Of a DNA stretch of 64,000 bases, positions 14,500 through 43,744 are shown piece after piece. Source of the DNA: Corythucha ciliata (taxonomy: Eukaryota > Arthropoda > Insecta > Hemiptera > Tingidae). Within the stretch, counting starts at the first letter, position 1. The number at the start of each line of letters is the position of its first letter. A program made the position numbers and the translations under genes. Where the stretch lies: contig CM075941.1 of the NCBI GenBank assembly GCA_038030265.1, positions 23,932,001 to 23,996,000 of the forward strand, given 5' to 3'. The notes under the pieces were generated by a model. That model searched no databases. It saw only the letters and a program-made list of their open reading frames with translations, and was not told the DNA's origin.

Positions 14500-16268
14500 C
14501 TAGTCATCCATCTTAGTTTCCGTGTCAAAACAATTTTGACAGCATTTTGGCGTGCTCTTGGCAAATTTTTTAAAGCATTTAGTGCACGACAGGCGTGTTT
14601 TCCTGTCTTTTCGGCGGTCACATAAGTAGCACCTTGACTTGGCTGTCGTAGCAGTGCTGGTCGCAGGTGACAGGGTCTCCTTTTCAACTCCAAGAACGCT
14701 CATCATATCAGTTCGAAGATAATTTGGCAAGTTTTTGGCGAGTAATCTGCACTTGATGTGAGTCTCCATGCACGAGGGAATAAGCTAGCGCCTTTAGGAA
14801 ATCAGTTCTCTTAGAAGTAGAACTGTTGAGAGTGGACAAGACGTAGCTATTTATACCAGCGGCGTCTACGACGAAAAAAAATAATCTCATTGGCCATCTT
14901 CTGGAAGCTCTTTTGCTGGTAGCAGAGTGACATAATTTGTCGAACACGTCCACACCTCCTTTCGTCAAATTGTAGAATTCGACAATATCCGGTTTACCGC
15001 TGTCCTTGTTGATTGTGGGTAAATCGTGCATAGTGGATAAGAGAATGACATTTTTGTTCTTCTTTTGGGTGAAAGACACCATGGTTTTTTTCCGCCTGGA
15101 AGACGAAACGCGAATTTCCTAACTCAAGGCCTTTTACAGAAACCATGCTTGGCGGAATTTCTCTTTTATTTTTTCGTAGAGTCCCTACCATAGTCAAACC
15201 GACTTTCGTAAGCTCCTCAGCCAGTTCGAAGGACGAAAACCAATTGTCAATTGTGATGTTTCGGTTAGTTCGCATGATTGGTTTTGACAGTTTCAAAACA
15301 TACTGTGTCGGTTTGAGCAATCCGATTTCACCCTTCAAAGTTGATTTGCCGATGTAAGGAATGCCGTCGCAAAAATAAAATGTTCGGGCGTCGCATAAGC
15401 TGACAATCTTCAGTCCGTACTTATCCGGTTTTTGAGGAATGTACATTTTGAATGAGCACCGACCCCTAAAGCTCAGTAAAGTTTCATCAATAGTGACGTA
15501 TTCTGAAGGTGTGTAGAATCGTCTGCAGTTTTCGGTGAATTTATCCCACAGCTCTCGAAAAGCGGCAAACTTGTCTTCTTTCAGCCTCTCCTCTCGAGTA
15601 ATCTTCGAGTCAAACCGCATTGCGCGAAGAAGAAATTTGAATCTACACTGAGTCATGGTCGATCGAAATATAGTTGGGCCATAAACTTGTGAAAACATAT
15701 CGTCCGTATTCAAACAACTTTTTTTGAGCACTCCTGCTAGAATTACGAGGCCTAAAAGTGCCTTGATTTCTGTATTATTTGTAGGCCCAATGTACCTTTG
15801 AGAGGTGTACCGTACGGACAGTCGGCCAATTTGTTCATTCGTGTGTACCGTGATTAGGTCGATTACTGAACTATCTAAGAAAAGAGATAACAAGTCTAGT
15901 TCCGAGGAAGCATCCTTAGCAGCTCCTTTTGGGCCTGGAAGATGACTAACTATGTTTTTTGCAGGTCTTCGTGAACCGTGATAAGAGAGAAAATGATGGT
16001 CAGTCCAAATTGTTTCCGCATCTTTTCCTAGCAAAATCTCCGTACTTTCACCATCGTGGGAAATGAAAGGACAGGTATCGCCGTTATTACCATCTTCCAC
16101 GCTGAACTCATCAGCAACATTGTCGTCGTTGGGAACAATGGCATCCTCTAGTTCACTCACACTCCCATCTCTTTGCTCGTCGTCGGATTCTTGATCAAGC
16201 CGTTCAAGCTCCCTTCTTATCTCTTCCGGGGTTGAGAACAAAACACTGTTAGCCATCTGTAAAATCAA
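14500..16268 (-). pseudogene. piggyBac transposase, two frameshifts
   Basis: Cut-and-paste transposase acting at TTAA. An acidic N-terminus (EELERLDQESDDEQRD type) is followed by the catalytic core: YVTIDETLLSFRGRCSF (first Asp), ITIDNWFSSFELAEEL (second Asp) and GGVDVFDKLCHS (third Asp). The Cys-rich C-terminal domain reads CYLCDRRKDRKTRLSCTKC then CCQNCF. A frameshift lies at a T-run near 15085 and another near 14775. All three catalytic Asp are present, so inactivation looks recent. Confidence 0.88.
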
Positions 16269-16736
16269 GAACCAAGTCCTATTTTGATGATAACCACGAA
16301 AGAAGATTCATGCGTGGAAAATCCCCCCCCCCTCCCAGATAGAAAACTAATTTACAATAACTCCTCAAAATTTTGGTTCGATTGCTTCTTATGCATGAAT
16401 GATAAAATAAAGATTTAAACGTAATTGATAAAAAAAAGCGATAAAAAACAGTGAACAGAGAGTAACAAGGGGTCTGACAGACCCCAGCGCCCCCTTTTTT
16501 TCCCCAGCGAGAAAAAATGAGGGTTTTCTTACCTTATTTTGTGTTGCGACACACTTCACGGCTGGCGAACAACTGAAAGAAAAGGTTCTGAAGATCTAAA
16601 ACTTCTGATCACAGATCGCGCTTGAATAGAGCGGGAAACGTGTGTTTGGGGTCTACTGGACCCCATTCTTACCACTCGAGGGTAATGCTAGGTATAAGAT
16701 TTCATTACATCCATCGTCAAAGTTACGTCACTTTTA

Positions 16737-18119
16737 TCAGTGCACACTATAATGGCGACAAGCGACTTTTAGTAGATGGAGACGAGAAATTTTTCCTTCC
16801 TTGAAGTTGGCCATTGTTTGTCGTAGAATATGTCGCCTTCTTTCTTGTCTGGAATTTCGCGGAGTTTTGGGATCACCACAACTATTCATGATGACGTATG
16901 TGTCCGTTTGCATTTGGAGGAGAACGTCTATGAATAAAAAAATGTTTGGGTGAGGTGATGTGAACATGTTATTGAACTTGGCATGGAACGACTCACAACA
17001 GTTCGTCGTTCGGTCGGATGTGAGTTCATCGGCTGCCCACATAGTCGGCGGAAATTTCGCATGCGAGAATATGTAATTGTCAGTAAGATAATCGCAGAAA
17101 TCAGTCACTTTGGGGTTTATGTCTGAGGGACACACGGACATAAGGTCCTCTACAAAACTGTCTTCAATTTGATCCGGGGGTAGTAGTGGGAGTCCAAACA
17201 CCAGCTTCAACCATTCACCGACTTCGTTGTTTTTTTCCTTGTACTGCGCTGAGAGACCATATCGCTGTATTGCTCTCCACGATGACTGGGCGAGGTGAAA
17301 TCTGCAACCAGTGATCTTCGCTTGTGGGAATACCGCCTTCACAGCAGCATGAATAGCCTCCTCAAAGTCGCATACGACGGCCTCAGGTGTAAATGAAAGA
17401 CCCAACTCGCAGCTTTCTTTGATCGTCGCTTTGAACATGGTTTCGTAAGCCTTAGTCGTTTTATTTGCCAAGAGAGAATACACAACCGGTATGAAATGGC
17501 CATTGTCGATGGAGTGGATGGTAAACATCTGAGTGAAAAATTTTTCGCAGTAGGTAAATGTCCCGTCAACAAAAATGGATTTGGAAGAAGACAGCTGCTT
17601 CAAATTCGTTGGAGTCGAAAATAGCACCAAACCGTCGTCATTAACCAGTAAAAACTTTTCCTTTCTTGCTGTTTCAAACCTGGCATTCTGTAGGCAATCG
17701 TGAGTTTCCGTGAGAAATTTGGGCAATGGTGGTAGGCGTTTTCTTCGCTCTCTGTATAAACATTGCCTGAAGTTACTTATGTCTGTCAGGGTGTAACTTA
17801 CATCGTCTTTCATTTGGGACCGAATCAGCTTCGACGGGCGTTCACTCAGCGAAGACGTAGCCTTCCTTTTCAACGAGTTAGAAAAATTTTCCTTTTGTAA
17901 CGTCGTATCGCTCACCAATGCATGATTGTGCCCTCCTTCTTCCTTGATGACTTCCGAAAAGCTTTCAGGAACGTATATTCTCGCACCACAACATCTTCTA
18001 CAACAACGCCACTTGTTACAGTTCAAGTATTCTACAAAACTGCACTTGTAGAATTTGAAGTTTTTATAAACTGCTAACTCGTTGCCTCGCTGTCCCACGA
18101 TGAACGACACTGGATGCAT
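16737..18119 (-). CDS. MULE transposase with FLYWCH-type zinc finger, intact
   Basis: 460 uninterrupted codons. Residues about 10-65 form a FLYWCH-type finger (ELAVYKNFKFYKC, W-R-C, C-G-A-R, then GGHNHAL). The catalytic core follows: KSIFVDGTFTYCEKFF (first Asp), EAVVCDFEEAIHAAVK (second Asp), a C-x-x-H in GCRFHLAQSSW, and TNCCESFHAKFN (Glu). This is the order of Mutator-like elements. Absence of any break suggests recent mobility or domestication. The stop lies 55 bases from the piggyBac end, so that insertion spared the gene. A related C-terminal fragment is at 53682-54068. Confidence 0.88.
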   Translation of the reverse strand: MHPVSFIVGQRGNELAVYKNFKFYKCSFVEYLNCNKWRCCRRCCGARIYVPESFSEVIKEEGGHNHALVSDTTLQKENFSNSLKRKATSSLSERPSKLIRSQMKDDVSYTLTDISNFRQCLYRERRKRLPPLPKFLTETHDCLQNARFETARKEKFLLVNDDGLVLFSTPTNLKQLSSSKSIFVDGTFTYCEKFFTQMFTIHSIDNGHFIPVVYSLLANKTTKAYETMFKATIKESCELGLSFTPEAVVCDFEEAIHAAVKAVFPQAKITGCRFHLAQSSWRAIQRYGLSAQYKEKNNEVGEWLKLVFGLPLLPPDQIEDSFVEDLMSVCPSDINPKVTDFCDYLTDNYIFSHAKFPPTMWAADELTSDRTTNCCESFHAKFNNMFTSPHPNIFLFIDVLLQMQTDTYVIMNSCGDPKTPRNSRQERRRHILRQTMANFKEGKISRLHLLKVACRHYSVH

Positions 18120-18700
18120 AGCTACGAGAAGGAGAATGTTTTCTGGGTCGAACTCAACGCAATACTGACTCCCTACTGATAGCGAATGAGATAACAGATC
18201 GACGGTGCAGTCAATCGTTGACCCTGGACTACCTGAAACAGCAACAAGTGCAGTCGATACAATTCATTATCGCCTAATGACAGCTTACGGTGCAGTCGAT
18301 ACTCACCCGTTTTCTGACCTAGAGCAGCAAAAGGAAGAAATGGAGTGCATGGGAGTGAATGGTATAGTCCTCATAAATATTTATACACACATAACCGGTG
18401 TCTAAAATGCATGAAGTTTAGAATGATTTGCGAACGCAGAGTTATCCTTCGGGGTAACATGATGAACAAACGTAAATCTTTCCATACTGGCAATGCTGCC
18501 GTATTGCATTACAAACCTTTTCTTTTCTTTTCTTTTCTTCATTTCCGGATAAAAATGTCAAAGCTCCAAGCACATTTGAGAGGTAGGGTTTGTGCAACAA
18601 CGAAAGTTACCAACAAAAAGAGTAATTATTTACAGAATTGTACAATTTAAAAAAAAATTAAGACACGAAAAAGATGAAATCATCTGAAATAAAAACATTT
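18120..18700. other. MULE right end and unannotated sequence
   Basis: 18200-18320 holds the subterminal motifs of the MULE (GTGCAGTCGATA copies). The rest has a (CTTTT)n tract near 18528-18540 and no coding signal that I can support. Confidence 0.45.
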
Positions 18701-19090
18701 CTATTGTAGTTCCCTAATCGGCATGTTCCTTGGTACTCTGGGGTCCACAATTTCAGGCAATAAGCACTGTTCGTAAAAGAAATTAAGCTTCGGCAGGCAC
18801 GTTTCTCTCCAGAAATCCTCGTCTTTTTCAATTACATTAATTTTAATGTCCAATGGTGTATATACAACAAAATAACATCTATCGCAACCTGAAATATTAA
18901 GTTGTCCTTGGACCTGATAGAAGTAGTCGTGGCTCCTTGAGAGGGAGCCATTGGCATCCAAGTATTTGATTTTATTGTTTTTTACGCCCTCTTCTACAGT
19001 GCCAAATCGTGCGGAATAAGGGCATTTCACTTCAATGATGGCACTCTCACCCTCAATGACTCCATCAGGGGACGCTGCTAAGTGGGAGGG
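18701..19090 (-). pseudogene. YqaJ-type nuclease domain fragment
   Basis: A PD-(D/E)xK exonuclease/recombinase domain. SPDGVIEGESAIIEVKCPYS carries the Asp and the E-V-K catalytic pair, and YFYQVQGQLNISGCDRCYFV carries the usual Q-x-x-Q-L motif. The tail LPKLNFFYEQCLLPEIVDPR is typical. Such genes travel with arthropod DNA transposons and viruses. The N-terminal half of the domain is missing: upstream the frame becomes a zinc-knuckle sequence. Confidence 0.75.
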
Positions 19091-19309
19091 TGGCTGGGGG
19101 CGGGTTAGAGGCCCGGGGCAGACAAATTTATCGTGATTTAAGCCACAAATTACACATTTCACCTTTACGTGGCATTTCTTTGCAATGTGTCCAAACGTCG
19201 TAAGTAGGGACCCGTGGCGTGTATGAGGGTGCAGGATACCGAGATACCGGCCACGCCCGCTGGCCATTTTGTACCCGCCCCCCTCCGCCGGCCATTTTGT
19301 ACCCACCAC
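19091..19309 (-). pseudogene. CCHC zinc-knuckle fragment, retroelement Gag-like
   Basis: In frame with the YqaJ fragment, HIAKKCHVKVKCVICGLNHD then FVCPG has paired Cys/His knots as in BEL/Pao-type Gag or precursor proteins. The joint near 19085-19110 is C/G-rich and looks like a rearrangement, not a natural fusion. Upstream residues (GGGYKMASGRGR) are low-complexity. Confidence 0.45.
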
Positions 19310-19354
19310 TCCCAGATCGGCTAGCCCCGCCCCCCGGCCGCCCGCCCCCTGCTC

Positions 19355-19408
19355 GCTTCAGGATAGTCCATACGAGACAGACGCCTTAACCACTGGACCA
19401 CCGCGGTG
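19355..19408 (-). repeat. tRNA-derived SINE head (truncated)
   Basis: On the minus strand GGTGGTCCAGTGGTTAAGGC matches the D-arm and A box of a tRNA gene, but no B box follows at tRNA spacing; the sequence becomes GC-rich unrelated DNA. It is a fragment, not a functional tRNA gene. Confidence 0.4.
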
Positions 19409-19982: not shown

Positions 19983-20555
19983 CTACCTGTTGGCTCCTGC
20001 TCGCACCTGGCTCGCATCCGATGGTAGGATCGGAACGTGTGTAGGGGCCTTAACTCTTTGTGTCCGATTCGAAAGGTAAGACTCAAAAAGCTTCAAAGTT
20101 AATCCTCTAATACCATAAGCATACAACTTATTTAATAATACTTTGTGCTGCACACAATCAAAAGCCTTACTAATGTCCAGAAAAATCCCCATTAATTGAA
20201 AACCCTCATTACATTTCTGGGAAATTAATTTATTCAGTTGAAATAAAGCATGTTCTGTACTTAAATTATGTTGAAAACCAAATTGTCTCTTTGAGATTAT
20301 ATCCGATTTTTCCAGGAAAGATATTAACCTAGATTTAATACATTTTTCTAGAACTTTGGAAAGCGACAAGGTTAATGAGATTGGCCTATAATTGTCTTTT
20401 AAGCCCTTATCCCCTGACTTGAAAAGCGGAACTACAATGGAATTCTTGAACAGATCCGGATAAACACCCGTAGCAAAAACCAGATTAAAAATGTGCGATA
20501 AGATCATACTTATGAACGGACTAACCATTTTAAGAACCTTGAAGACTACCTTCAA
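19983..20555 (-). pseudogene. CR1/Jockey-group LINE reverse transcriptase fragment
   Basis: The N-terminal part of a LINE reverse transcriptase: NYRPISLTLSLSKVLEKCI, QFGFQHNLSTEHALFQLNKL, then FLDISKAFDCVQHKVLLNKL (motif A) and YLSNRTQRVKA. It is closely related to the LINE copy at 23693-30005. It ends near 19985, and its upstream end is lost near 20530 in a CTTCAAG-rich stretch just before Harbinger A. Confidence 0.8.
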
Positions 20556-20827
20556 CCTTCAAGACTGTGTACTTGAAGACTAACGGTAAAGGTAGGTCTA
20601 CACGGAGAGAGCTAGAGCGACGCTGATTGCGTAGAGCAGTGTCAGCCGCGTCTACACCATGAGCTAGAGTGAGAGCTAGAGTGAGCTTCCGAGACCGCTC
20701 TCGCTCTCGCTCTCACTGGTGATTGCGAGAGCAATTGACAGTGCGTCTACACCCCCCCCCTTTCTTGCAATTGCGCGAGAGCGAGATTCGTCGTAATTTC
20801 ACTCAGTAGTCTTCCGACCGTCTGATT

Positions 20828-23692: not shown

Positions 23693-25089
23693 TAAGTAAG
23701 TTTTATTTTGGAAAAAAACATGAATAAATAAAAGGAAAACTCCAATTTACAATAATAATTACATCACCAGCCCTATTAGAAGTTCAAAGAACTTGTGCAA
23801 TAGGGCCGAGTTGGTTGAAAAGACGGTCAGCAGAGCCACAAGAGCTTAAAAAAACAATCTACACAAACCAATTAGGTGAAAATACTATACAAATTAAAAA
23901 AAAAAAAAAAACAACAAGGGCAAGTACAAAGTAATAAGTTACACAAATTAATAACAAAAAATATTTCTTATAGCTTCAGCTAGCGAGTGAGGTGTGTGCT
24001 GTGCAATGTTCAGACAGTTATTGTAGGAAAAAATAAGGGCTTGATCGTAAGCGTTGCGCCTTTAAAATTCAGTATTACATTTAGGGATTCTAATATTCGA
24101 AAGAGTGGCAGATCTCAAATGTCCGATGATACTCTTATGCTCTTCCTTAATGCTAGTCTTAGAAATATGCAAAGACGATATAAGCAAAAAAAGCTGCTTA
24201 ACATTCAAGATACCTAATTCTTTGTATAATTTTCCTGTTGGGTAACGGGGAGGTTTTTTAAATAACATTTTTAGGATACAGTTCTGTACCGTTTGTAAGG
24301 TTTTCAAATTAGTCCAAGTGCTACCCCATACAATAATGCCATACCGAATGATAGATTCCACTAGTGCAAAGTAAACAGTTTTACGTTCAATATAGGACAA
24401 TAACTTAGTTAGAATTTTACATGGATAAAATAACTTACGTAGCCTGTTACTAACCGATCTAATATGTGATTTAAATTTCAACTGGTGGTCTATAGTGACC
24501 CCCAAGTATTTGCACTCTGTGGTCATCTGTAAGTCACTACAAATACAAGACTTCGAGAAGACACAAGATACACTTTCATGGAATTTCAAGCTCAACTTAA
24601 CTTGTTTCACACAAGGGGAAATTTTAAATTTAATAGCCCATGATTTATTAACATTGAGACAGATATAATTACAGTCTAGCCATTTCTTAAGTACGAATAA
24701 ATCCATATTTATTGAGTTCTCCAGATCAACCAAATCATCTCCCCAATAAATTAGCGCAATATCATCCGCAAAAGCAAATATTTCTCCCGATAGGTTAAGA
24801 TGTAGGACTTCATTTATATACAACAAAAATAGGATAGGCCCCAAAACCGTTCCTTGAGGAACCCCGAAAGTAACTTGTTCAGTAGAGCTCAAACTACCAG
24901 AGACTCTTGTTACTTGAGTTCTACCTTCAAGATATGATCTAAGCAAATCAAGAGCAACCCCTCTAACTCCACAAGCAAATAATTTTTCCAATAACAGGCC
25001 ATGATGAACAGAGTCAAATGCTTTTTTAATGTCTAGGAAAAGTCCTACTACATGTTTTCCTCGATCGAGCTTTTCCGATACCAAGTTAT
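23693..25089 (-). mobile_element. LINE A (CR1/Jockey group), 3' part
   Basis: The 3' segment of a LINE whose 5' part is at 29488-30005. The frame 24062-25085 reads FLDIKKAFDSVHHGLLLEKL (motif A), FGVPQGTVLGPILFLLYINE (motif B) and EIFAFADDIALIYW (motif C, FADD), then the thumb region with YGIIVWGSTWTN and a tail. No stop occurs in this part. The 3' untranslated region ends with AATAAAACTTACTTACTT near 23693, a microsatellite-like tail. The gene is interrupted at codons for VNN-LV by the LTR/virus insertion. Confidence 0.87.
25086..25089. repeat. Target-site duplication of the LTR/virus insert (left)
   Basis: TTAT (ATAA on the minus strand) at 25086-25089 is repeated at 29488-29491. Removing 25090-29487 and one copy restores the LINE reading frame through the conserved F-K-V-N-N-L stretch. 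Confidence 0.85.
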
Positions 25090-25177
25090 TGTAACGAATA
25101 CACACAAATGCATGGGCAACTTCACCCTTTTCCTTTTTTACAAAAACCATTTAAGTCCTTATCCTTAATTATTATTC
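25090..25177 (-). repeat. 3' LTR remnant (last 88 bp of the LTR)
   Basis: Matches 29005-29092 with two substitutions, then diverges abruptly. On the minus strand it ends GTTACA at the LINE junction, the inverted partner of the TGTAAC that opens the 5' LTR. It therefore carries the terminal bases an integrase needs, although the upstream part of the LTR is absent. Viral sequence begins directly next to it. Confidence 0.85.
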
Positions 25178-26368
25178 GTATAAATCTACATCCTCTACAT
25201 AAGACTTAGTATCTGTGTTTATAATCTTAGAAAAAGCCCAACCCCACTTACTTCTAAACTTCTTATCTAAAACCACCGCTGATGGGGCCCCGCCGGAGGT
25301 ACCCCAGCGCATCGGGTCATTACAGTAATCCTTAAAATTTAAAAATCTAGGAATAGGACTAAAGTAGTTTAAAAATGAGCTGAATTGTCTGTCGACGAAT
25401 TCAGGCGTGCCAAGGTCCGGCTTGGGACTCACCCACTTCTTGACGTCCGCGACAATGTCTTCCTTCCGGTTAGGTGCTCTAGCTCCGAGAGCATGTAGGT
25501 GTAAGAGCCACTTGTACTGAATGCCTTCAGTGAAAACCCATGGAAAGTAGAATGAACTTACCTTCGATAGGTGGGCCCTCAAATAATCACTTTTTGTGTT
25601 TGGTGCGTACTTCTGGGCCTTCTGGGCCCACAGCAGCTTCTTTTTAAGGATGTTCAATATTCCGAGGAAGGATTGTGGTATGTAATGTTGTCCGCTCGAT
25701 CTAATTTAGCAGTAATACAGGTATAATGGTTGTGAATATGAAGTACCCATTATGGGCCATCCGGGCGGGAGCTCAACACTAAATCTGGTCAATGCTTCGA
25801 TTTCGGGGTCCGGCTTGGGGGTGTACTCGAGCTTCTTGAGCTCGTCCACCAAGACGCGGGGGACCGTGACCTTCAACATTTTGCAGAGGGGTGTTGAATT
25901 GTTCTTTTTGAATGGATTGGTTGCTAATCTGATTATATCGTCCCTTCCTTCGGTTATGAAGTCCTCCATTAAGTTAGAGTCTAAGCCCCATCTTCTGTCG
26001 GTTGGTCCGACGTACTTGGAGCCCCTGGTGGTATTATCGATGAATTGGTGAGTTGTGCCTCCACCTGTTTCTTCCTTTCTTCTTCTGGTTTCTTTTCGTC
26101 CCGAGGCTTCATCATCTGCTCCAACCTCGGAACTACCTTCTCTTTCACCACGGTCGATGTCAGGTTGGCCACTTGTTCCTTCGCTTTGTCTGACAGGCCC
26201 AAATCCTCCGCTAATCTGTCCAGTGCTTCTAGGCCAGCTGTCTGTATGGCCGCCTGTGGGTTCATCGTCTTCAAACCCTGCTGGAGGCCCTTCACTAGTG
26301 GTTCCAACACGTACCTCTTTGCCCGTGAGTAGACCGCCTGTCCCCCTTGGACTAAAAAATTCAGCCAC
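25172..26368 (-). pseudogene. Totivirus-like RNA polymerase, N-terminal part (endogenous)
   Basis: The second viral frame, -1 relative to the capsid frame. It opens after a TGA only a few codons upstream of a slippery site and runs about 220 codons to an in-frame TAA (25706-25708). It then stays open to 25172. The latter part reads FLNYFSPIPRFLNF and RWGTSGGAPSAVV, which I take as the region upstream of the polymerase palm of toti-like viruses. The palm, including GDD, is absent because the viral sequence stops at the LTR remnant. The first part is low-complexity (Gly, Glu, Arg) and overlaps the capsid frame. Confidence 0.72.
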
Positions 26369-28722
26369 TGTGGTGGGTCAGGATATTTAAGGTCTGACGT
26401 AACAAAAAGGACATCTCTCAATGAGTTGTCAAACCCAGAGCCTATCACCTTGATGGAACGTTTTCCATCCGACCACATCGGGTACGTGTTGGTTTGTTGG
26501 GACCAACATTGAGACATGAATGTCGATCCTGAAGTCAGGACAAATTGGTTCGTCCTGATGAAAGTCGTTTGTGAGTCCTCACCCCATAGGATGGCTGCGC
26601 CGTTTGTGAGCTCGCCTATCACGGGGGTAAGGGCAAACACTACTGGGGGATTCAAAGTTAACACCATCTTGCTAGTGCTGGCTATCTTGAACATGCCGTT
26701 GGTGTCAGATATGTTCATCACAGGCATGCGTCTTCCGTTGACTAATTCCCCGTGCATAGGAACTTGTTGATTTTGAAAAGACGGTAAACCCATGTTGTTA
26801 ACCCACTGGAGGAATGGACCAAACATGATGGGGGCGGTGCTGTTGAGCTGTTGGTCGGTAATTGATATGTCGTAGTAGTCTTGGACTGATTCCCATGTCC
26901 TGTCTACTCCGTATTCTATTACATTATTTAAATCGACTCCGATCACCGTCCAAGCCGATATTATTTTCATCATTTTCCGGATATATGTGTTGTCTATTTG
27001 TTCATCTACGGGGCTGAGAGAACTGAGCGTGGCCAGGGATAGATCTGAATTTGCGGCCCAGTAGGTCATCGTCATCGCCAGAGTCAGACCATGTTGAACC
27101 ACAAAACTGTACAGTCCATAGTGAGACAAAGGCGATAGTATTTGTTCGTGCGTTTCGATTAGGCCCATTGTCATTCCGAGCCTCATCTCGGTGCTGGTGG
27201 TTTCTATGCTGTAATTTGGTAAACCGGACACGTCAGTCCCATCCCAATAAACGTAGGAGTACACAACTTGCGCGTATTCCGAGTCTCTGGGCTCCATCAA
27301 CCATTGTTCAGTCACTGATGTTGCTATGTGACCAGTCGCATAAGTCATGAAACAATCACGATACGAAAAGTTGTATCCCGATAGACGAGACCTGGCGGCT
27401 GTATTGTCTGCTGCTGTGCTCTTGTCATCGGTGGCCGATTTCCAAAACCACTTACAACGTATGTACATGTTTTTCTTCTCATCAAGTGGGCCTTCCTCAG
27501 TTCCCCACGCTCCGTAAGAGGCTATGTCAGGGCTGTCCCATTGCGTTCGACCAACACCGAGGGTGAAGTTGTCACAAAACGTTGCTGATACAGACAAGAC
27601 TCTACCAACAACGCGGGACGTGCAGGTATGTTTTTCGATATATTTCCATGCTTTCAAACAGTCTGCTCCCATTCTGTCGAAATCTATTGTTGCCGATTTA
27701 TTGTTGAACCAGTTTTTCCATATCTCTGAAAGATTATGTATTTGTGGATTATCTGATATACGGTGCCACACTGGATAATTCCTATTCCCGATGCGTATCT
27801 TTGGTAGTGTGTTAGGGCCTCCTGACTCCGTGAGAATTAACATAGCGTGTAATGGACCCGGGATAAAGACTGAGTTACAGGTGGGCATTATCGATTGGTA
27901 TGTTTCCGAGGTGGGTGGGGACGCGGTCGCGTTCTTGTACTTTTGCCTCCATGCGTAGGCTACTTGTCCGGACCAAAAATTTGAATCCAGGTGTGATATG
28001 GTGTAGGGCACTAACGCGGTGGCGCTCAAAAGTTCTGGTTGACATGGAATGCCCGTCCAGGTTCTATCAATATCTGTTTGGTTAAAACATTTCTGTAGGT
28101 CAGCTGGTGGGTTGGCAGTTGCCATGCCCTTATGTGTCATGTATTGGTTCCAAACGTCCACTGTTACTATTAATAATTTTGAATCTGTGTTAAATGGAGC
28201 CGGACTTTCTAATTTTGTCATACCGGTCAACGAAGTGGGCAGGTTTATAGCGCGCCGTATGATACGTCGTGAAGTTGGGTCATAGGTCAAGTCCTTGTAA
28301 CACAAGGATAGTGTCAGACACGTCAATCTTAATAGCGGTGCTTCGTCGTTAGGAGTGTTTTTTTGCACCCTCAACCGCTGGGCCAATGCAACCAGTGTGC
28401 TGGGGTCAGTCGTGCCGTATCCTTTCTGCAGTGACAGTGCTCCCGCCATTGGAGAAGGGGAATCGGCTTGTGCAATTAGAAATGAATGTTTAGCTGTGAA
28501 ACTAACCGGATCAATAACATCCGGGGAATAAGTGATAGAACAGACGCGCACGGGTATTCTGTCAATGGCGGTTCCGGCGTCATACTTCGGTTTAGGGGCA
28601 GCCTGGTTATGGTCAGGTGGGGCTTCAACCTTCTGGGGGCCTAGCAGTGTTTCGGACAACAGCGGTTCTAAACATAAATTAACAAATGATGATGAACTAG
28701 CTTCAGACGGGATGACGGACAC
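25981..28722 (-). CDS. Totivirus-like capsid protein frame (endogenous viral element)
   Basis: 913 open codons without a stop or frameshift. Length, lack of motifs of cellular enzymes, position 5' of a -1 overlapping polymerase frame and a C-terminal helical, charged tail fit the coat protein of a toti-like double-stranded RNA virus. No ATG opens the frame: a TAG lies at 28732-28734 and the first internal Met is about 90 codons in. The viral start codon is therefore lost or lies in another phase. An unbroken 2.7 kb frame suggests recent integration or selection. Confidence 0.7.
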   Translation of the reverse strand: MSVIPSEASSSSFVNLCLEPLLSETLLGPQKVEAPPDHNQAAPKPKYDAGTAIDRIPVRVCSITYSPDVIDPVSFTAKHSFLIAQADSPSPMAGALSLQKGYGTTDPSTLVALAQRLRVQKNTPNDEAPLLRLTCLTLSLCYKDLTYDPTSRRIIRRAINLPTSLTGMTKLESPAPFNTDSKLLIVTVDVWNQYMTHKGMATANPPADLQKCFNQTDIDRTWTGIPCQPELLSATALVPYTISHLDSNFWSGQVAYAWRQKYKNATASPPTSETYQSIMPTCNSVFIPGPLHAMLILTESGGPNTLPKIRIGNRNYPVWHRISDNPQIHNLSEIWKNWFNNKSATIDFDRMGADCLKAWKYIEKHTCTSRVVGRVLSVSATFCDNFTLGVGRTQWDSPDIASYGAWGTEEGPLDEKKNMYIRCKWFWKSATDDKSTAADNTAARSRLSGYNFSYRDCFMTYATGHIATSVTEQWLMEPRDSEYAQVVYSYVYWDGTDVSGLPNYSIETTSTEMRLGMTMGLIETHEQILSPLSHYGLYSFVVQHGLTLAMTMTYWAANSDLSLATLSSLSPVDEQIDNTYIRKMMKIISAWTVIGVDLNNVIEYGVDRTWESVQDYYDISITDQQLNSTAPIMFGPFLQWVNNMGLPSFQNQQVPMHGELVNGRRMPVMNISDTNGMFKIASTSKMVLTLNPPVVFALTPVIGELTNGAAILWGEDSQTTFIRTNQFVLTSGSTFMSQCWSQQTNTYPMWSDGKRSIKVIGSGFDNSLRDVLFVTSDLKYPDPPQWLNFLVQGGQAVYSRAKRYVLEPLVKGLQQGLKTMNPQAAIQTAGLEALDRLAEDLGLSDKAKEQVANLTSTVVKEKVVPRLEQMMKPRDEKKPEEERKKQVEAQLTNSSIIPPGAPSTSDQPTEDGA
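26353..26359 (-). promoter_or_regulatory. -1 ribosomal frameshift heptamer
   Basis: On the minus strand T-TTT-TTA in capsid phase (codons AAT TTT TTA), a canonical X-XXY-YYZ slippery site. The polymerase frame opens 12 bases before the codon that precedes it, after a TGA, which is the expected arrangement. A downstream pseudoknot was not resolved by eye. Confidence 0.72.
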
Positions 28723-29004
28723 ACTGCTGCCCTACAGACCTATCGAGTCACTTGGGACTTTTGTCAGTTTAGCGGACTGGCAATCGAGGTACGACGCTAC
28801 GTGTTCACTGCGATTTAATACGAAACGGAAAACTGATTATTGTGTTTTGATGTGTTTGAGCTAAAATGGAAAACGATCAAAACGCACCTTTATTCGAGAA
28901 CATTGACCTTCGGCCGACCACCGTTAGTAGATGTAACTCAAAAACTGTTATTGCTTTATTGTTGTCCTTTTTTATGATTTTAATTACAAGTTTTGTATTT
29001 GTAG

Positions 29005-29487
29005 TGTAACGAATACACACAAGTGCATGGGCAACTTCACCCTTTTCCTTTTTTACAAAAACCATTTAAGTCCTTATCCGTAATTATTATTCCTTCTAAA
29101 AATTATCCCTATTTAAATCTACCAATACTACAAATTATTTCTCACCCCTCCCCAGCCCTTCTGCACCAAAACGGAAATCACCGAGATGCCGAGAAAGGGC
29201 GAATATTGGAGCGTCAGCAAAACTCAGCGTGAGAAAAGCGGGTTTCCCACCAATAGGTGCCGAAAAACAGATATAAGGAAGGGGCGCTCTGATCTCGCTC
29301 TCTCTGCCGTCCGAGTCTTCGCCGTAATCCCGTCAGATCCCTAGGTCCGCGTGGTGTGTCCTCCCCGAGTATAATAATAGGCTTTATACTGTGTCAATAA
29401 ATCAGTTTTATTCTTTTTAATCACTTTCTTAATTCCCCCCGGTAATAAGCCCATTCCCCAATATCGCCCAAAAAAAGGCTTGTTACA
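29005..29487 (-). repeat. 5' LTR (483 bp)
   Basis: Begins TGTAAC at 29487 and ends GTTACA at 29005 on the minus strand, a perfect 6-bp inverted end. Inside are a TATA-like AGTATAAAGCC stretch and AATAAAACTG. It lies directly against the 4-bp target duplication. Similarity in style is to Ty3/Gypsy-type LTRs with 4-5 bp duplications; no internal retrotransposon gene is left to classify it. Confidence 0.82.
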
Positions 29488-30005
29488 TTATTTACTTTGA
29501 AAAGAACATCCTGTGTACTAAGTTCTCGATGGAAACCAAATTGATTGTTAGATATAATTTTATTCCGTTCCAAAAAAGAAACTAATCTACTTTTAATACA
29601 TTTCTCCAACAATTTCTAAACAGCTAAGGTCAAAGCTATAGGCCTGTAATTACTTGTCAACAATTTATCTCCACTCTTGTACAGAGGTACAACACAAGCA
29701 TGTTTCAATGACTTGGGAAATTTACCAGTAGTAAAAGCCAAATTGAAAATATGAGCCAAAGGGCTACTAATGTAGCAAGGCAACTTTTTAAGAATTTCAT
29801 TATTTAAAGTGCCCATATTGTAAGATGAAACCAGTTTCAACTTAGCGATCAAATTTTCAACTTCAAGGGGATGCACTGGACCTAAGAATATTGACTCCTT
29901 AACCGTTGTTACACGGTCGACTTTGGATCGTACAATCTGCAACTCGGCATCACAGGGGTACCTGACTGTACTAGCTATTTCAGCCCCAACACTTGAAAAA
30001 TAGGT
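29488..30005 (-). mobile_element. LINE A, 5' part of the reverse transcriptase
   Basis: Upstream continuation of the LINE at 23693. It reads FFK/YFSSVGAEIASTV near 29990, then GPVHPLEVENLIAKLKL, FPKSLKHACVVPLYKSGD and NYRPIALTLAV, an in-frame stop near 29616, then LLEKCIKSRLVSFLERN and QFGFHRELSTQDVLF up to the insertion. The 5' end is cut by the R1-like LINE at 30006. Confidence 0.82.
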
Positions 30006-30026
30006 ATTTAGCAGACAGATGGTGCT

Positions 30027-31804
30027 CTAGGTCCCAGTACCCTGGGTATCCGAGGCCGAGAGTTGGCTAGTGGGTGGGTCACCAGCACTCGCCATCGCGG
30101 GGCCCGTGCCCCGGCGGTGGTACCACGCGTTAGCGAAGGCGAGGAAGCGGCGGGCCGACGATTTTGTAGCGACGAGGTGGCGCGGGTTTTGGGGGATTCG
30201 CCATAGATCCCTGATGTCGCGATAGAGTGTGCAGCGGAGAAGCACATGCTCCGCCGTTTCGGCCTCGCCTCCGCATGGGCAGTTGGGGTTGTCTCGGCGC
30301 CGGTGGAAGTGGAGCTTGTGGTTGAAGGAGCCGTGTCCCGATAATAATTGTACCGCTGGATAGCTTAGGAAGCGCCACTTCCACCGCAGGCGCTCCTCGA
30401 TCACGGGGATAATGGTGTGTGTGTATCGGCCAGTGGTTCCGTTATCCCACTCGCTCTGCCGGCGCCTGAGAGCTGCTCGTCGGCACTGTTTTTCGTATTC
30501 CGCTGATTCAAGTGTGGGGTGGGGGCCAGCCATTCGGGGAGTTTGGTAGTTGGTCCCTAGGAGGCGGGCTCGTAGGGCTGCGAGGACGTCCAGCTCTAGG
30601 TCGAGTGGGAGAACTCCGGCTAGGACGTGGAGTGTCAGGTGTGCCGTGGTGTTATAGGCGCGGAGCGCGGCAACAAGGAAGCGGCGTTGAATTGTGCGCG
30701 CTTGTTGGCGGTCCGAGGTCGTGCTGCCGGCCACCAGGTGACGCACGCGTATGTTATTCGCGGTATGAAGACAGCCTTGTAGTATACGAGCCGCCTCTGG
30801 AAGTCAGGCCCCCATCCTCGGCCCGATATCCCTCGGAGGAAATCGCAGCTGGCGGTGGTGGTGCGCGCTAAGTATGCCAGGTGTTGCGTTGGCAGTCCTG
30901 ATCTCATCATCGTGACTCCTAAATAGTGCACGGGGTGAACTAGCGGCATCGTTCGGTTGGTGGAGGTCCGAAGGTGTCGCGTGGCGCACTGTGGAAGGCT
31001 GCGCGCATGGTGATTTCGGCGAGATTAGCGATTCGCATGTCGATCGAGTCCCCATCCGGTGGAACATCCAGGTGGAAAGAGGTTGTTATTCCGCGGGATA
31101 CGAGGGCCTTGAAGGCAGGCCAGTTGGCATTGGCGAGGTCAAGACGGGAAGGTTGGTCCGCGACACGGGGCGGTCGATGACGGTTGTCGGCGATCTCTGT
31201 GATAATTAACACATGATCCAACGTGGTGATTGCGTCGGAGATCATCCAGGATAGGGGGGTGAGTCCGACAGCGATGGTCAGGTCGATGAAGCTGTCCCCA
31301 TGTGGGCCTGTGAACGTTGGGCCTTGGTTGGGGTCGTTGATGATCTCCGCCCTGTGGACGCAGCGCAAGGAGGCGTTGGCCGCGGGCGTCTGTCCGAGGG
31401 GCGCCCCACTCCAGAGCCCAGGCATTGAAGTCACCAAGGAGGATGATCCTTGGGAAGGAGTGAAGGAGGGTCTCGAGATGGGCGAGAATTTGAGTTTCGT
31501 GGGTGTTGGGTGGAGGTATGTAGACTGAGGCGACGATGGAGTTGCTTACTCGGACGACTGTAACGAATGGCGTGGAATGCCGGGGTAGGAACAGAGCGTC
31601 TATGTTGGGGGCGGTGATCGCAACGGCCGTGCGCTGCTCGACGCTGAAGGTTGGAGGGGCGATGCGGACACCAGTGCCTAGGGTGGGGTTTTCAAGACGG
31701 GGTACTTCCTGCAAGGCGACGAGCGTGGCCGGGATTGATGCTAAGGTTTCCCTTAGCTCGTCCCATGTTGCGCGTTGCCGCGCGAGATTAAGTTGCGCGA
31801 ACAC
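30027..31804 (-). pseudogene. R1-like ORF2: endonuclease and C-terminus, RT core deleted
   Basis: The APE-type endonuclease starts MFAQLNLARQRATWDEL, with VALQEVPRL (Glu) and ILLGDFNAWALEWG (Asp and Asn). After a frameshift near 31430 it continues PNQGPTFTGPHGDSFIDLTI and a weak HVLIITEI segment to about 30990. The palm with its FADD motif is absent. The C-terminal part resumes HYLGVTMMRSGLPTQHL, then a CCHC tail NCPCGGEAETAEHVLLRC and ends near 30027. Confidence 0.8.
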
Positions 31805-31864
31805 CAGAGGGGTGCTGGGGTTGAGGCGTTAGTGCGGTTGAGACGGTGGCTGTTGGGAAGGGTT

Positions 31865-33502
31865 CTATCCATGGTGTTCGTTATTGGTTATGTCCATTGC
31901 CGTGTCCGATGACTGAGTTGTCGGAGTGACGGTGGGTGTTATGGACTGGTTGGAGTCGGTCTGCGGGGTGGTGCCGTAGTCAGTATGTCTGACCATTTGT
32001 TGGGTGGCCGCTATAAGTGACGGGCATCGGTGATCCCTAGTGTGGTGAGTCGTGTCAGGTCTTCGGTCGCGGACGCAGTTGATGCATCGCGGTGGGCTGT
32101 TTTTGTTAGGGCATTCCCCATAGTCGTGGCCGGATGCTGAGCAGTGTCCGCAGATGGCTTCCTCCGGTTTTAGTGGGCATGATCCAGTCGAGTGGCGGAA
32201 GCCATGGCAACGGAAGCAGCGGGAAGCTTCGATGAGGTCTCGTGGCGCTACGTATATCCATGGCTGGATTTCGAGGTGTCCGCGGGTCATGATAGCGTGG
32301 CGTCCTGCAGTGGTGACCTGTTCCACTCGCGTGACAGTGCCGGATGATGTTATTGGCGTAGTTTTAGGGAAGAGGGGCACTATATCGCTCACTGGGATTT
32401 CAGGGCAGTTCTCCCGGATGGCCTGTTTGAGTTGGTCCGGAGTCCAATCGCGGGGGACTTCCGGGATTAGGAGTCTCGGATGTAGTCCCGGGAGTGGGGT
32501 GACGCGGAGAACTGCCGTGGCCAGGCGAGTAGTTTTTGTTTGTCCCTGGTGGTTCCCAGTTTTATGATCACGCCTCCTGCCCGCGTGATCTGAGTCCCCG
32601 TGATGGTTATTCCGAGGGAGCGGGCAGTGGGGAGCTTCGAAAGGAGGTCGGCAACTTTGGTGGTAGGGTCGTTGGGTTTGAGCATGAGTTGCCTGCTCGA
32701 GTCGGACTTGGGTATCGGCCCACTGGTCGCTTTTATTGTTGCCCTAGCTTGTTGGACCGTGCGTTCGACTGACCTGACACGCTCAGTTGACTTGGACCGG
32801 GTATTAGGAGAGGTGCTCTGTTTCGTGATTTGTGCAAAGGTGGTGCGTGATGCGCGAGTTGTAGGTGGGGCCAGCTGTTCCATCGCCATCAAGGGAGTTG
32901 TGCCCTGTGTAGGGGGCTGGTTGGTCGGGAGGATTTTCTTGATTTCAGGTAGAACTATTTCGCGGATTGCGGTTGAGATTTGGGTGCGGATCTTGTCCAC
33001 GATCTCTTCTCGCGTGGTGAGTGCGGTGGTTATGCTGGAGGATGTGGAGGGCGTTGTGGCTGGGTCGCGATTTGCGGGGAAGGCTATAGCTGTGGCCGCC
33101 TCCACCAGATATAGGAGGGCGTCCACCTGCTGCGTGAGCAAGTTGCGGCGATAGTGGTGCCCATTGTAGAGTGCATGTAGGATGTCGTCACGGAGGGTGT
33201 GGACTCCTTTGAGGCTTGCTGGAATGCCAGTCTCCCGGAAGAAAGTGGCCGACTGGTAGGCCATGTAGTAGGGAGGGGTGACGGTATTGGTGGTGGGGTT
33301 GCCGCTGGTGTTGGGGTTGATGGCGGGGGTTGCAGTCGGTTGAGGTGGGGGCGACGGTGGCGTGCTGGGCAGGACGCTTGAGTGGTTTCGCTGTTTTTGT
33401 CGCTGTTGTGTCTTCGGGGCTTACTTGCGTTAGGAAAAGATTCGAGAGGGAGGTCGATTTCTTTGGTTTTGATCGCAGAGGGGGGGGGAGTGATTTGGGC
33501 AT
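31865..33502 (-). pseudogene. R1-like ORF1 (Gag-like) with three zinc knuckles
   Basis: A Pro/Thr-rich N-terminus (MPKSLPPPLRSKPKKST) is followed, after a frameshift near 33260, by a helical region (DKIRTQISTAIREIVLPEIK). A further frameshift near 32430 leads to a C-terminal block CFRCHGFRHSTGSC, CGHCSASGHDYGEC and CINC with H-x-C: three CCHC knuckles typical of R1-clade ORF1. Confidence 0.78.
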
Positions 33503-38839: not shown

Positions 38840-39423
38840 TTGATTCGCGTAATTTCTATGTTGCTTCGTACATAATTAGCAGGGGGTCCTGCCAGTGTTG
38901 GCGGGAGCAGTCTATTGATGAAATTATCGTCAGCAGGGTGTAATGAGGAGATGGCAGAGGCGACGACACGTAAGTAACATTCTGAATCACTTTTTGCCGA
39001 GATGCTTGTACTATATTGCTTGTATGGTTGCTTGTACTATATTCCTTGTACTATATATGCTTGTATTATATTTAGAGAAGAGCCCCAGCGCAGCCCCCCA
39101 CCGCCACCGAGCCCTGACTCGTCGGCTCAGGAGGAGGCAAGACGTAAGACAATGCTACCTTGAAACCTTGATAATTTAGTTTGCTAGAATCTATAATGTA
39201 TTTATTTTTTTACAGCGATGAAGACACAAATAAAAAATTATTATTAAAAGTTGTTTTCAGTTTACGTGCAACCTTCGGAGCGTACACAACTTGACTAAAA
39301 AGTAAAAGTGAGATAGGGAAATTCAGTGCAATTATTTATCCACTTTTTTCTCTACCTTTGTTTATTTGTTTGTTTCTTCACTCAATTATCGAACTTTGCC
39401 TCAAGCGAAGCTTCAACCTCATC
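38840..39423. other. Unassigned; possible small spliced exon
   Basis: 39075-39143 has an acceptor-like ATATTTAG, an open Pro-rich stretch (EEPQRSPPPPPSPDSSAQEE) and a donor (GACGTAAGAC). A similar donor lies near 38970 (CACGTAAGTAAC). These could be exons of a partner gene for the neighbouring Harbinger fragment; evidence is thin. Confidence 0.25.
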
Positions 39424-39858
39424 ATGGATGACGAGGGGGACTATTCGTCTAAAAAGCGTAAGGTGCACAATGTACAATCCTACATTAGCCCTAACCCGTT
39501 CCAGCCTTTATCTAATCTTCAAGATGAAGATAATCCCACCAACTCTACTGTGGAAAAGCCTCCTGCCTGCGACGTGAACGAAATGATGAAAGAGCTAAAG
39601 AATCTCGGCTATGATCCTGTCCAAATGGTTCCGGTCTTCCATCCGGTAACAAAGCAAGCACATCCTCTCTTTTTTCTTGATTTGAAGCCCAGCATACAAA
39701 ATCCCGAAATATACAAACTTACCACTTTTTATTACTCGAAAATTCGGGTAGAGCCACCGAAGCCCCGGCGAACCGTCCTGCAGTGTGTTCGTTGTCAGGA
39801 TTTTGGGCATCAAATACATCCCACGTCGTCTTGCAATAAACCACCAAACGCACCATCT
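39424..39858 (+). pseudogene. Jockey LINE 1, ORF1 (first part)
   Basis: A Gag-like ORF1 with a PRE_C2HC-type region. It starts MDDEGDYSSKKRKVHNVQ, then NEMMKELKNLGYDPVQMVPV, HPLFFLDLKPSIQNPEIYKL and a knuckle CVRCQDFGHQIHPTSSCNKP. The frame is cut near 39858 by Jockey LINE 2 in the opposite orientation, and the element resumes at about 43745. Confidence 0.78.
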
Positions 39859-40001
39859 ATTTGTTTTTGTTTGTTTTCAAATTTATAACTTTGTTGCACC
39901 TAGGTACATTTCAGTTAGGCTCGGTACTATGGGTATACCGATCATATGACACATGTTGCAGTAGCAGCATCCAGTGATGGGCTACGCTAATTACTAATTA
40001 T

Positions 40002-42681
40002 TTATAAGTTCAGCAGGTCACTATGCCGCTTTCGCTGTAGCCTTCGCTGTGATCGGGGTGCCGGTTGGTGCGCAAACTTCTCTTTAAGGAGATCATTTGG
40101 ATGATCCCTGAGTCTCTCATGATGACGATTGTATATCAAACCTAAGGATTCGTGTACCTCAGGGATACCTAGATCCACGTGAAGGGTGCGGTTTCTCACG
40201 TACCATGGGGCACCAGTTATTAGGCGTAGGATTCTATTTTGAACTGTTTGAACTCTCTTGATTTGGGAGTCGGAGGCCGAGGCCCAGAGAGCACAGCCAT
40301 ATTGCCAAACCGGTCTGATCAAAGACGTATATTGCTTTTTTCGTGTGCAAGGCAAGGCTAGGGCTAATTAATAGATGTTTTAGCATATGCATGCGGGCTC
40401 TCAATTTCTGGACAATTGCAGTTATATGAGGTTTCCATGTGAGCCTAGCGTCAAGTACCAAGCCGAGATACTTAGTTTCGTCGGAATAAGGCACTTCTGC
40501 TCCATGAAGAGTTAGAGTCGGGGACGATACATTTCTAAGATACGTGAATTGTACCACCTGGGACTTGGTCGGGTTCACCTTGACTCGCCAGCGGTTGCAC
40601 CAGTCCTCGACCTGAAAGGAACAGTTTTGCACATGGGTATGCGCTTTGGTGCTAGACGATTCTTTAGACAAAACTGCCACATCATCTGCAAAGTGGGCTA
40701 CTTTCACATGCCTATCAACAGGATAATCGTGGACGTAAAAAAAGTAAAGGAAAGGTCCAAGCACACTTCCCTGCGGCACCCCAGCTCGTATAGCGTAAGA
40801 CTTCGATAGGGCATCCTTGTATTTCACAGTGAACGTGCGGCCTTGAAGGTATGAGCGGACAACTCTGAAATACGTGTCAGGTAAGAATTCTTTCAATTTG
40901 TACAAAAGTCCGTAATGCCACACTCGGTCAAAAGCCTTTTCAGTGTCCTGGAACAGGCCAATGCAAGTATTCTTTTCCTCGTACGTGTCCAGAATCTCAT
41001 CAACAACTCTATGGAGCTGCAGGGTGCACGAATGAGCTGCGCGGAATCCGAACTGAGTATTTGGTAGCGCGCATTCCAGGAGCGGCATGAGTTTAGCAAG
41101 AAGGAGCCTTTCAAAAATTTTGGACAAGAGGGGTAGGAGACTAACCGGCCTATAATTCGCTGGGTTATCTTTGCGCTGGCCAGGCTTGGGTATAGGAATA
41201 ATGTGGGCGTGCTTCCACGTCTGCGGGTAGTGCGAGAGCCGTATTACCGTGTTGTAGATTTGCGTTAAGCACACTATTCCTTTCCTTGGCAGATTGACTA
41301 ACAACGGTATCGTAATTAGGTCATGCCCGGGAGCTTTTTTCGTTGGTAGCTTCTGTATAGCGGCAACGACTTGTTTAGGAGTGAACAACGGAGGCAGTCG
41401 CGATAGCTGGAGGGGTCCATCCGCAAAGTCCTCTACCTGGCGACACCATTCGTCATTACTGCTGTGATTCGGCTCAAACTGGGTGTAAAAGCGCTCTGCA
41501 AATGTGTCTGCTTTCTCCTTTGGGGATGTGGCCCACTGATTGTTGTTTAGCTTGAGCGGAGGTATACCCGCGAAGCTCCTAGTGATCGATTTGGTCTTTT
41601 TCCACAGCGTGCCGTCTTGGAGATCCAAATTTGCCAGTTCGGCTTCCACGTAACTTGCACGATTATCCTTGAGCGCACGTTTCCCATCTCGAATAGAATT
41701 GTTGTACGCCGTTTTATCAGGAGGATATTGTGACTGTTCCCATCGCAATCGGCATTCTCGTTTAATACGAAGCAGGTGTAGTATATGTGATGGTAAGGAA
41801 GGGAGGAAGGGATGCATTATCTTCCTAACTTTCTTGCTGCTCTGTGCTTCAGTGACCGCCCTTTGGAGAACTCGGGTGAACCCGCTAATAGCTTTATCGA
41901 TGTCGGTTGGGTCTTTCAGGCTGATGCTATGTTTAACGCTAGAATCTACTATGGACCTATATTTATTCCAATCCACAGGGGAATGGATAAGGGATGCGGG
42001 TTTATACGCTGGAGCGATAGCTGATGTGAGTTTAATGTGAACGGGATAGTGATCGGAGTGCAGTTCGTAATGAACTCCAGGATGCGAGCGGTGGCGTTTT
42101 ACATTTTTCCCTATGAAAAAATCAAGAACGTCTGGTGTGCCACCACTATTCGGGAAGAAAGTTGGTTCAATAGGGTGCATGAATTCAATATTATGTTTGT
42201 GCCCAACTTCGTGCAGCAATTTTCTTCTAGGGTTAGTTACATTGGATCCCCAGCTCGGATGTTTGGAATTAAAGTCTCCTCCTAGGATGAAGTGTTGTTT
42301 CATTTCATGGAGAATCCCCCATAGGTGTGCTTCTTGCACTCTATTTTCAGGCGCCGAATAGAAGGAACCAAGTTGGTATTTCCGTTGTCCCATTTATACT
42401 CTAGCCCTAGCTATCTGTACTTCGTTTTCACATATTGGGGGAAGTTCGTCATGTTTAACGTGCGGTCGTATCAGCAGCAGTGAGCCACCTTTTCGGCGGC
42501 CGCTGGGGTGGTCAGAACGATAGCATTTGTATCCTTTCATCTGAAAATTGATATGCGGCGCTAGTTTGGTCTCCGTTGCCAGCAGAACGTCAATGCTATG
42601 CAGAGTAAGGTATACATCTAATTCGTTATATTTCTGGGCAATACCTTGACAATTCCAGGTGCTTATTTTGAGGGCGTTCAT
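40002..42681 (-). pseudogene. Jockey 2 ORF2: endonuclease and reverse transcriptase
   Basis: The APE endonuclease starts MNALKISTWNCQGIAQKYNE, with LATETKLAP, a stop (TAA at 42394-42396), then ILGGDFNSKHPSWGSN and LHSDHYPVHIKL. The reverse transcriptase has NYRPVSLLPLLSKIFERLL, GLFQDTEKAFDRVWHYGLLY, AGVPQGSVLGPFLYFFYVHD and VAHFADDVAVLS (FADD). A frameshift near 40345 leads to the C-terminal IRPVWQYGCALWASA and a short tail. One stop and one frameshift in about 890 codons. Confidence 0.88.
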
Positions 42682-43656: not shown

Positions 43657-43744
43657 AGATTCATTATCTACCGGAGCATGGGCAAGGGGAGCAAAACGAT
43701 TTTCCGTGAGGACGGCACGGCCCTCCTTCGGAGATTAATTTAAT

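Follow-up and report, generated by a model that had tools for sequence, protein, structure and literature searches.

How does sequence that may derive from an RNA virus come to lie between the ends of an LTR retrotransposon in an insect chromosome? The entry of RNA viruses without a reverse transcriptase into animal germlines has often been inferred from context. At a locus where the outer ends, the target duplication, the LINE frame and both inner joints can be read, the LTR route becomes separable from the LINE route at the base level. The original prediction for the DNA analyzed here, a 64-kb stretch from Corythucha ciliata (the window), was that a totivirus-like cDNA had entered in one event between LTR ends. 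Our best reading (probability of about 0.6) is that the insertion arose from a one-off aberrant reverse-transcription product, which would have been inserted by the integrase of an LTR element.

Structure of the insertion and its target site

The insertion is one unit of 4,398 bp (window positions 25090-29487). On the plus strand it consists, in order, of TTAT, an 88-bp LTR piece, 3,827 bp of other DNA (the cargo), a 483-bp LTR, and TTAT again. The left LTR piece (25090-25177, plus strand, beginning TGTAACG) is identical to 29005-29092 at 86 of its 88 positions, with the two mismatches at LTR positions 19 and 76. Its similarity ends at 25177/25178; the next 61 bases agree with the later part of the LTR at 27 of 61 positions at best in ungapped comparison. 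The cargo follows at 25178-29004, and the complete LTR at 29005-29487 (plus strand, TGTAACG...TTGTTACA). After these two copies, the third-best match to the LTR in the 64-kb window was only 26 nt long (E 0.025). LTR words found no match in IMG/VR or in prokaryote contigs, collections that are not arthropod genomes and are therefore little informative for this question, and neither tRNA genes nor Rfam families were found in the window.

Flank comparison placed the target-site duplication at 25086-25089 and 29488-29491. It reads TTAT on the plus strand and ATAA on the minus strand, as originally reported, and its extension to 5 and 6 bp fails to match. The outer termini are TG..CA, which together with the short duplication is the form expected of an LTR-retrotransposon integration product; with 88 of 483 bp in the left LTR, the two full LTRs of a complete LTR retrotransposon are not present. 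The target is a LINE reverse transcriptase on the minus strand, whose downstream part lies at 24062-25089 (RVT_1, E 1e-19) and whose upstream part, at 29492-30026, is in frame with it across the empty site; the 136-aa ORF of the upstream part has no Pfam match by itself. Once the insert and one TTAT are removed, the reverse-transcriptase frame is unbroken at the site, and one stop lies further upstream in this old, interrupted LINE. A second LINE copy (ORF 19986-20558) aligns across the insertion site without a gap. The restored frame and the collinear copy define a precise empty site, in line with the earlier claim that removal of the insert restores the LINE frame. Elsewhere in the window, a 719-aa LINE-type endonuclease-reverse transcriptase ORF (40237-42393, minus strand; RVT_1, E 1.2e-34) is open; it shares 27% identity with the interrupted LINE and has PRE_C2HC ORFs in its vicinity (39295-39885 and 43081-43734).

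Comparison of the flanks of the three blocks found no exact 4-bp duplication around any inner block. The flanks are GTAG/TTAT for the full LTR alone, ATTC/TGTA for the cargo alone, and TTAT/GTAT for the 88-bp piece alone, the last agreeing at three of four positions. A later entry of the viral piece with its own duplication, the case that would have told against a joint integration, was searched for at these inner blocks and not seen. Since the LINE frame is restored, the second LINE copy is collinear and exact inner duplications are absent, the outer ends and the duplication are, judged by their sequence, those of a single integration event. By itself, a 4-bp duplication would be expected as a coincidence in about one of 256 cases; once the LTR termini and the LINE frame are considered as well, coincidence would not be a serious explanation. 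The sequence thus gives good support to the integration of a single chimera, bounded by LTR ends and accompanied by a 4-bp duplication, but the polarity first assigned to the LTR has to be reversed.

This reversal follows from the order of two signals. On the plus strand of the LTR, TATAAG at 29272 is followed by AATAAA at 29396, while on the minus strand AATAAA (29412) stands ahead of TATAAA (29388), an arrangement that does not suit a promoter followed by a poly(A) site. We therefore read the LTR on the plus strand, where the partial copy would be the start of U3, an orientation that rests on two short signals. The original prediction had described a 483-bp LTR and the last 88 bp of the same LTR; the two copies are indeed there, but the shorter one is the last part only when read along the ORFs and, by the LTR signals, would be the opening 88 bp of U3. 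Of the two inner joints, the right one coincides exactly with LTR base 1 and the left one lies inside U3; the long ORFs of the cargo are antisense to the LTR.

The sequences that normally accompany LTRs are missing. Over the 40 nt ahead of the right LTR, purines run for 3 bases at most; in the opposite reading, they reach 6 in a row ahead of the left piece, at a distance of 13 nt, so that neither side offers a polypurine tract. No TGG of a primer-binding site occurs in the relevant 20 nt beside the LTRs in either orientation. In a Pfam scan of the eight cargo ORFs of at least 100 aa, none of the families reached its cut-off, so that no gag-pol, retroelement or transposase domain was found. Without a primer-binding site or polypurine tract, the structure is unable to spread by normal retrotransposition and, as it could not have made itself in this way, at least its right side probably stems from an abnormal reverse-transcription or joining event.

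Gene layout and identity of the cargo

The cargo is organized on the minus strand. ORF1, a candidate capsid gene (25981-28731), has 916 codons from stop to stop, an open length with a chance p of about 1e-21 under the base composition; its first methionine is residue 95 (28449), from which 822 aa can be read. ORF2 lies in the -1 frame relative to ORF1 and is divided by one in-frame stop into a first open piece (P0003, 25706-26377) and a second (P0002, 25178-25705), the candidate start of an RdRp, which ends at the LTR joint. The translation of P0002 was taken from 25175-25705, so that its final codon lies inside the LTR piece. A long ORF1 with an overlapping ORF2 in the -1 frame, here with one internal stop, is the layout of toti-like viruses. 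Three XXXYYYZ heptamers occur in the ORF1/ORF2 overlap (26197-26359, minus strand; first bases at 26359, 26278 and 26203) in a phase that fits -1 frameshifting. RNA folds downstream of these heptamers were no better than those of shuffled sequences (z of 0.50, 0.15 and -1.27), and three comparison segments gave z of -0.46, -0.08 and -1.12.

Codon usage was scanned in 31 segments of 120 nt with a model trained on 26400-28431, and only segments outside this training region are counted. At or below the ORF1 stop, the ORF2 frame was the best of the six in five of six segments, and the ORF1 frame was best in two of the three overlap segments. At the start of ORF1, its frame was best in one of three segments, a plus-strand frame being higher in the other two, and in the two segments above ORF1 no frame had a positive score. 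Because the codon signal at the start of ORF1 is weak, its first 95 or so codons may be non-coding. Between ORF1 and the LTR lies a stretch of 273 bp (28732-29004), without a polypurine tract before the LTR, of which the 140 bp next to the LTR (28865-29004) are AT-rich (34% GC). This stretch may be the 5' untranslated end of the virus or another captured piece, such as a host mRNA. It also contains a 47-aa plus-strand ORF with a hydrophobic end (28866-29009) that runs into the first LTR bases. Its one Pfam match is below threshold (E 0.11) and we do not claim it as a gene; it could be a product of chance, 48 open codons being common by chance, or the start of a captured host mRNA.

Searches for relatives of the cargo proteins were negative throughout. 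ORF1 had none in Pfam, NCBIfam, PDB sequences or IMG/VR, nor in the protein database, where residues 1-900 were used and the 7992 candidates that had the most words in common with them were scored. The first ORF2 piece had no relative in Pfam, NCBIfam or IMG/VR, nor among 365 candidates from the protein database; the second had none in Pfam, NCBIfam, PDB, IMG/VR or prokaryote contigs, nor among 36 protein-database candidates. For both pieces, the length range applied to the protein database excluded full-length RdRps. Word-pattern stretches were found in IMG/VR for the first piece (14) and in IMG/VR (2) and prokaryote contigs (14) for the second, and tblastn confirmed none of them. The five plus-strand ORFs of the cargo had no Pfam match. 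A hit of ORF1 to RNA_pol_I_A49 (E 0.084, below the family cut-off) and eight PDB matches of the same ORF (E 0.44-0.88) were set aside as chance. Single-sequence AlphaFold models had a mean pLDDT of 39.4 for the ORF2 piece and 32.2 for ORF1, too poor for fold searches.

The label "totivirus-like" thus stands on the gene layout, while a significant sequence relative was found in none of the searches. The second ORF2 piece may resemble the region ahead of the RdRp catalytic motifs, and the cargo ends at 25178, presumably before the position at which the GDD motif would be expected. We consider the cargo to be probably viral; that it is specifically toti-like, as the gene layout and this possible motif resemblance suggest, is also probable, though we hold it with somewhat less confidence.

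Routes of entry

Under our preferred reading, an LTR retrotransposon particle would have reverse-transcribed a foreign, probably toti-like RNA along with its own RNA or DNA. A strand begun at U3 base 1 would have copied 88 nt before switching to the viral RNA, which would then be copied from inside ORF2 up to its 5' end; synthesis would have resumed at base 1 of an LTR template and continued through U3-R-U5. The double-stranded product would terminate properly, in U3 on its left side and in U5 on its right side, and the integrase of the element would have inserted it into the LINE, generating the 4-bp duplication. A tentative order of events, which we consider less likely than not, is capture during plus-strand synthesis: the nascent strand, primed at U3 base 1, would have departed from its DNA template at 88 nt, followed the viral mRNA as far as its 5' end and then moved end to end onto the 3' end of the LTR strong-stop DNA. 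On the right side, U3-R-U5 would be added once synthesis transferred to a minus strand whose 3' end lies at U3 base 1. LTR base 1 is an end made by reverse transcription itself, and ORFs opposite to the LTR strand are what a plus-strand switch onto viral mRNA would produce. Copying of a negative-sense viral template during minus-strand synthesis would yield the same product and is indistinguishable here from the plus-strand route. If plus-strand capture did occur, viral cDNA can receive integrase-ready ends without a primer-binding site, a polypurine tract or a full second LTR.

Several observations speak against this preferred reading. No relative of the cargo was found that could serve as a parent for comparison at either inner joint; the polarity on which the scheme depends is given by the two short signals TATAAG and AATAAA; and no simple one-step process would place a switch exactly at LTR base 1. 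Furthermore, the truncated left LTR is also explicable by a later deletion, and this provides the main rival. Here, a longer chimeric provirus with two full LTRs would have integrated first, and a subsequent deletion on the left would have taken away LTR bases 89-483 together with the primer-binding site and some of the cargo. A single post-integration event would suffice, and the left inner joint does fall at an arbitrary point of the LTR, as deletions leave it. Nevertheless, the right LTR also has no polypurine tract, so the chimera must have been abnormal from the outset, and we regard this course of events as rather unlikely. The filling of a double-strand break, with viral DNA replacing the interior of a normal LTR element already resident in the LINE, would account both for the common outer duplication and for the lack of one around the cargo. 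It is improbable, since the right inner joint would have to hit LTR base 1 exactly by chance and nearly the whole element would have to be lost simultaneously. That exact joint is readily obtained if the retroelement integrase joined an LTR end into viral cDNA, in a manner resembling autointegration, before the product integrated. We regard this as equally improbable: integrase would have to act twice, and the 88 bp on the left would need an origin of their own. Nor does the inner joint show another duplication, although none would be left by a reaction at one end.

The rivals are not all mutually exclusive, as one of them concerns the cargo and the others the route. According to the former, the interior would be an unfamiliar transposon or a host cDNA lying between LTR ends. 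The protein searches without significant homology, the lack of a frameshift structure and the first 95 or so codons of ORF1, where codon usage does not favor its frame and a plus-strand frame scores higher in two of three segments, all agree with this; the small ORF at 28866-29009 might also be captured host mRNA, subject to the same caveat about chance. Against it stand an ORF of 916 codons without a stop, the overlapping -1 frame that comes after it and has slippery heptamers in the appropriate phase, the shift of the codon-usage signal from ORF1 to that frame, and the lack of retroelement or transposase domains in the eight larger ORFs, so that we judge a non-viral interior unlikely. LINE-mediated entry of viral RNA, by target-primed reverse transcription from a poly(A) tail, is the route proposed for endogenous bornavirus elements (PMC3205384), and the insertion does lie inside a LINE. 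It is nonetheless hardly credible at this locus: in the 30 nt at each of the four joints, runs of A or T do not exceed 4, and the outer ends already contradict it, being LTR termini with a 4-bp duplication.

Related systems, age and neighboring elements

The capture of RNA-virus sequence by LTR elements is already known in invertebrates, and the case described here differs in that both joints are readable. A close likeness is eBxnv-1, a nodavirus-like element in a Bel/Pao retrotransposon of Bursaphelenchus xylophilus, where non-retroviral RNA-virus sequence also lies between LTRs and for which copy-choice recombination during reverse transcription, followed by integration, was proposed (PMC5177903). 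As described there, eBxnv-1 has pol, a primer-binding site and a polypurine tract, none of which is seen in the Corythucha insert, and its LTRs match over 132 nt, in contrast to LTRs of 88 and 483 bp. The available text of that report describes no target duplication, and LTRharvest was set to require 5-20 bp. The authors of the report were aware of a single natural precedent, of which only terminal repeats were left (Tanne and Sela 2005, cited in PMC5177903). In arthropods, RNA-virus sequences inside LTR elements include the chuvirus glycoproteins of the mosquito BEL-Pao elements named "Anakin" (PMC7642597) and AeBunya1 in a Pao-Bel element of Aedes aegypti (PMC5497376). The former are reported in many copies, 13 of them complete and potentially active, whereas the Corythucha insert has no visible means of moving; the latter is described within a full-length element. 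Further associations of such inserts with LTR elements have been reported (PMC6455143, PMC10675110). Consequently, our claim is more modest than the original one of a notable case, as LTR-element capture in invertebrates is in print (PMC5177903, PMC7642597).

Other systems share single features with the insert. In the LCMV-IAP recombinants (Geuking et al. 2009, via PMC3205384, which also describes the LINE route; cited in PMC5177903), RNA-virus sequence was joined to an LTR retrotransposon and integrated, but experimentally and in mouse (PMC3205384). The template switching through which LTR elements take up cellular mRNA has been reviewed (PMC5408686), and in LTR-mediated retrocopies (Tan et al., via PMC5408686) it likewise brings foreign mRNA into LTR-element cDNA. 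According to that account, the retrocopies are cellular genes that gain LTRs and a promoter, whereas the left LTR in Corythucha ends before the TATA box. HIV-1 proviruses with asymmetric LTRs also have one incomplete LTR, ascribed to faulty reverse transcription (PMC9278108); in the model given there, the deletion affects the 3' LTR and the cargo is HIV, while in Corythucha it is the left LTR that is incomplete, and the cargo is foreign. Toti-like endogenous elements are common in arthropods, with 5686 elements in 593 species reported from 1188 genomes (PMC10636211). The main text of that survey does not contain the term "LTR", and the Corythucha cargo differs in having no detected relative. 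Among the matches listed from the open-licence PMC literature, mostly titles and the beginnings of abstracts, none presented a toti-like insert of an arthropod in which a target duplication accompanies both LTR joints. Since the structure is without the parts that a retroelement needs to move again, we predict it to be single-copy, unlike captured genes that spread with an element.

The LTR copies differ at 2 of 88 positions, or 2.3% (95% limits 0.3-8%). At a divergence of 2.3%, 1.27 new stops would be expected in ORF1, with a probability of 0.28 of finding none; across the range from 0.3 to 8%, this probability falls from 0.86 to 0.012. Zero stops are unremarkable at such divergence, so the intact ORF1 is no evidence for selection. 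No evidence for a function of the insert was found.

Several further elements occur around the insertion. To the right of the LINE, at 30000-33500, the composition shifts abruptly to about 56-61% GC and several long minus-strand ORFs appear, four of which were tested and had no Pfam match. To the left, on the minus strand, an IS4-type transposase, which we assume to be piggyBac-like (14997-16307; DDE_Tnp_1_7, E 1.1e-57), is accompanied by a MULE transposase domain (16740-18263, E 4.9e-15), and a YqaJ-like viral recombinase domain (18704-19357, E 2.2e-8) is found among these transposon genes. Further to the right, the plus strand encodes a DDE_Tnp_4 transposase (54509-55384, E 6.4e-26), presumably Harbinger-like.
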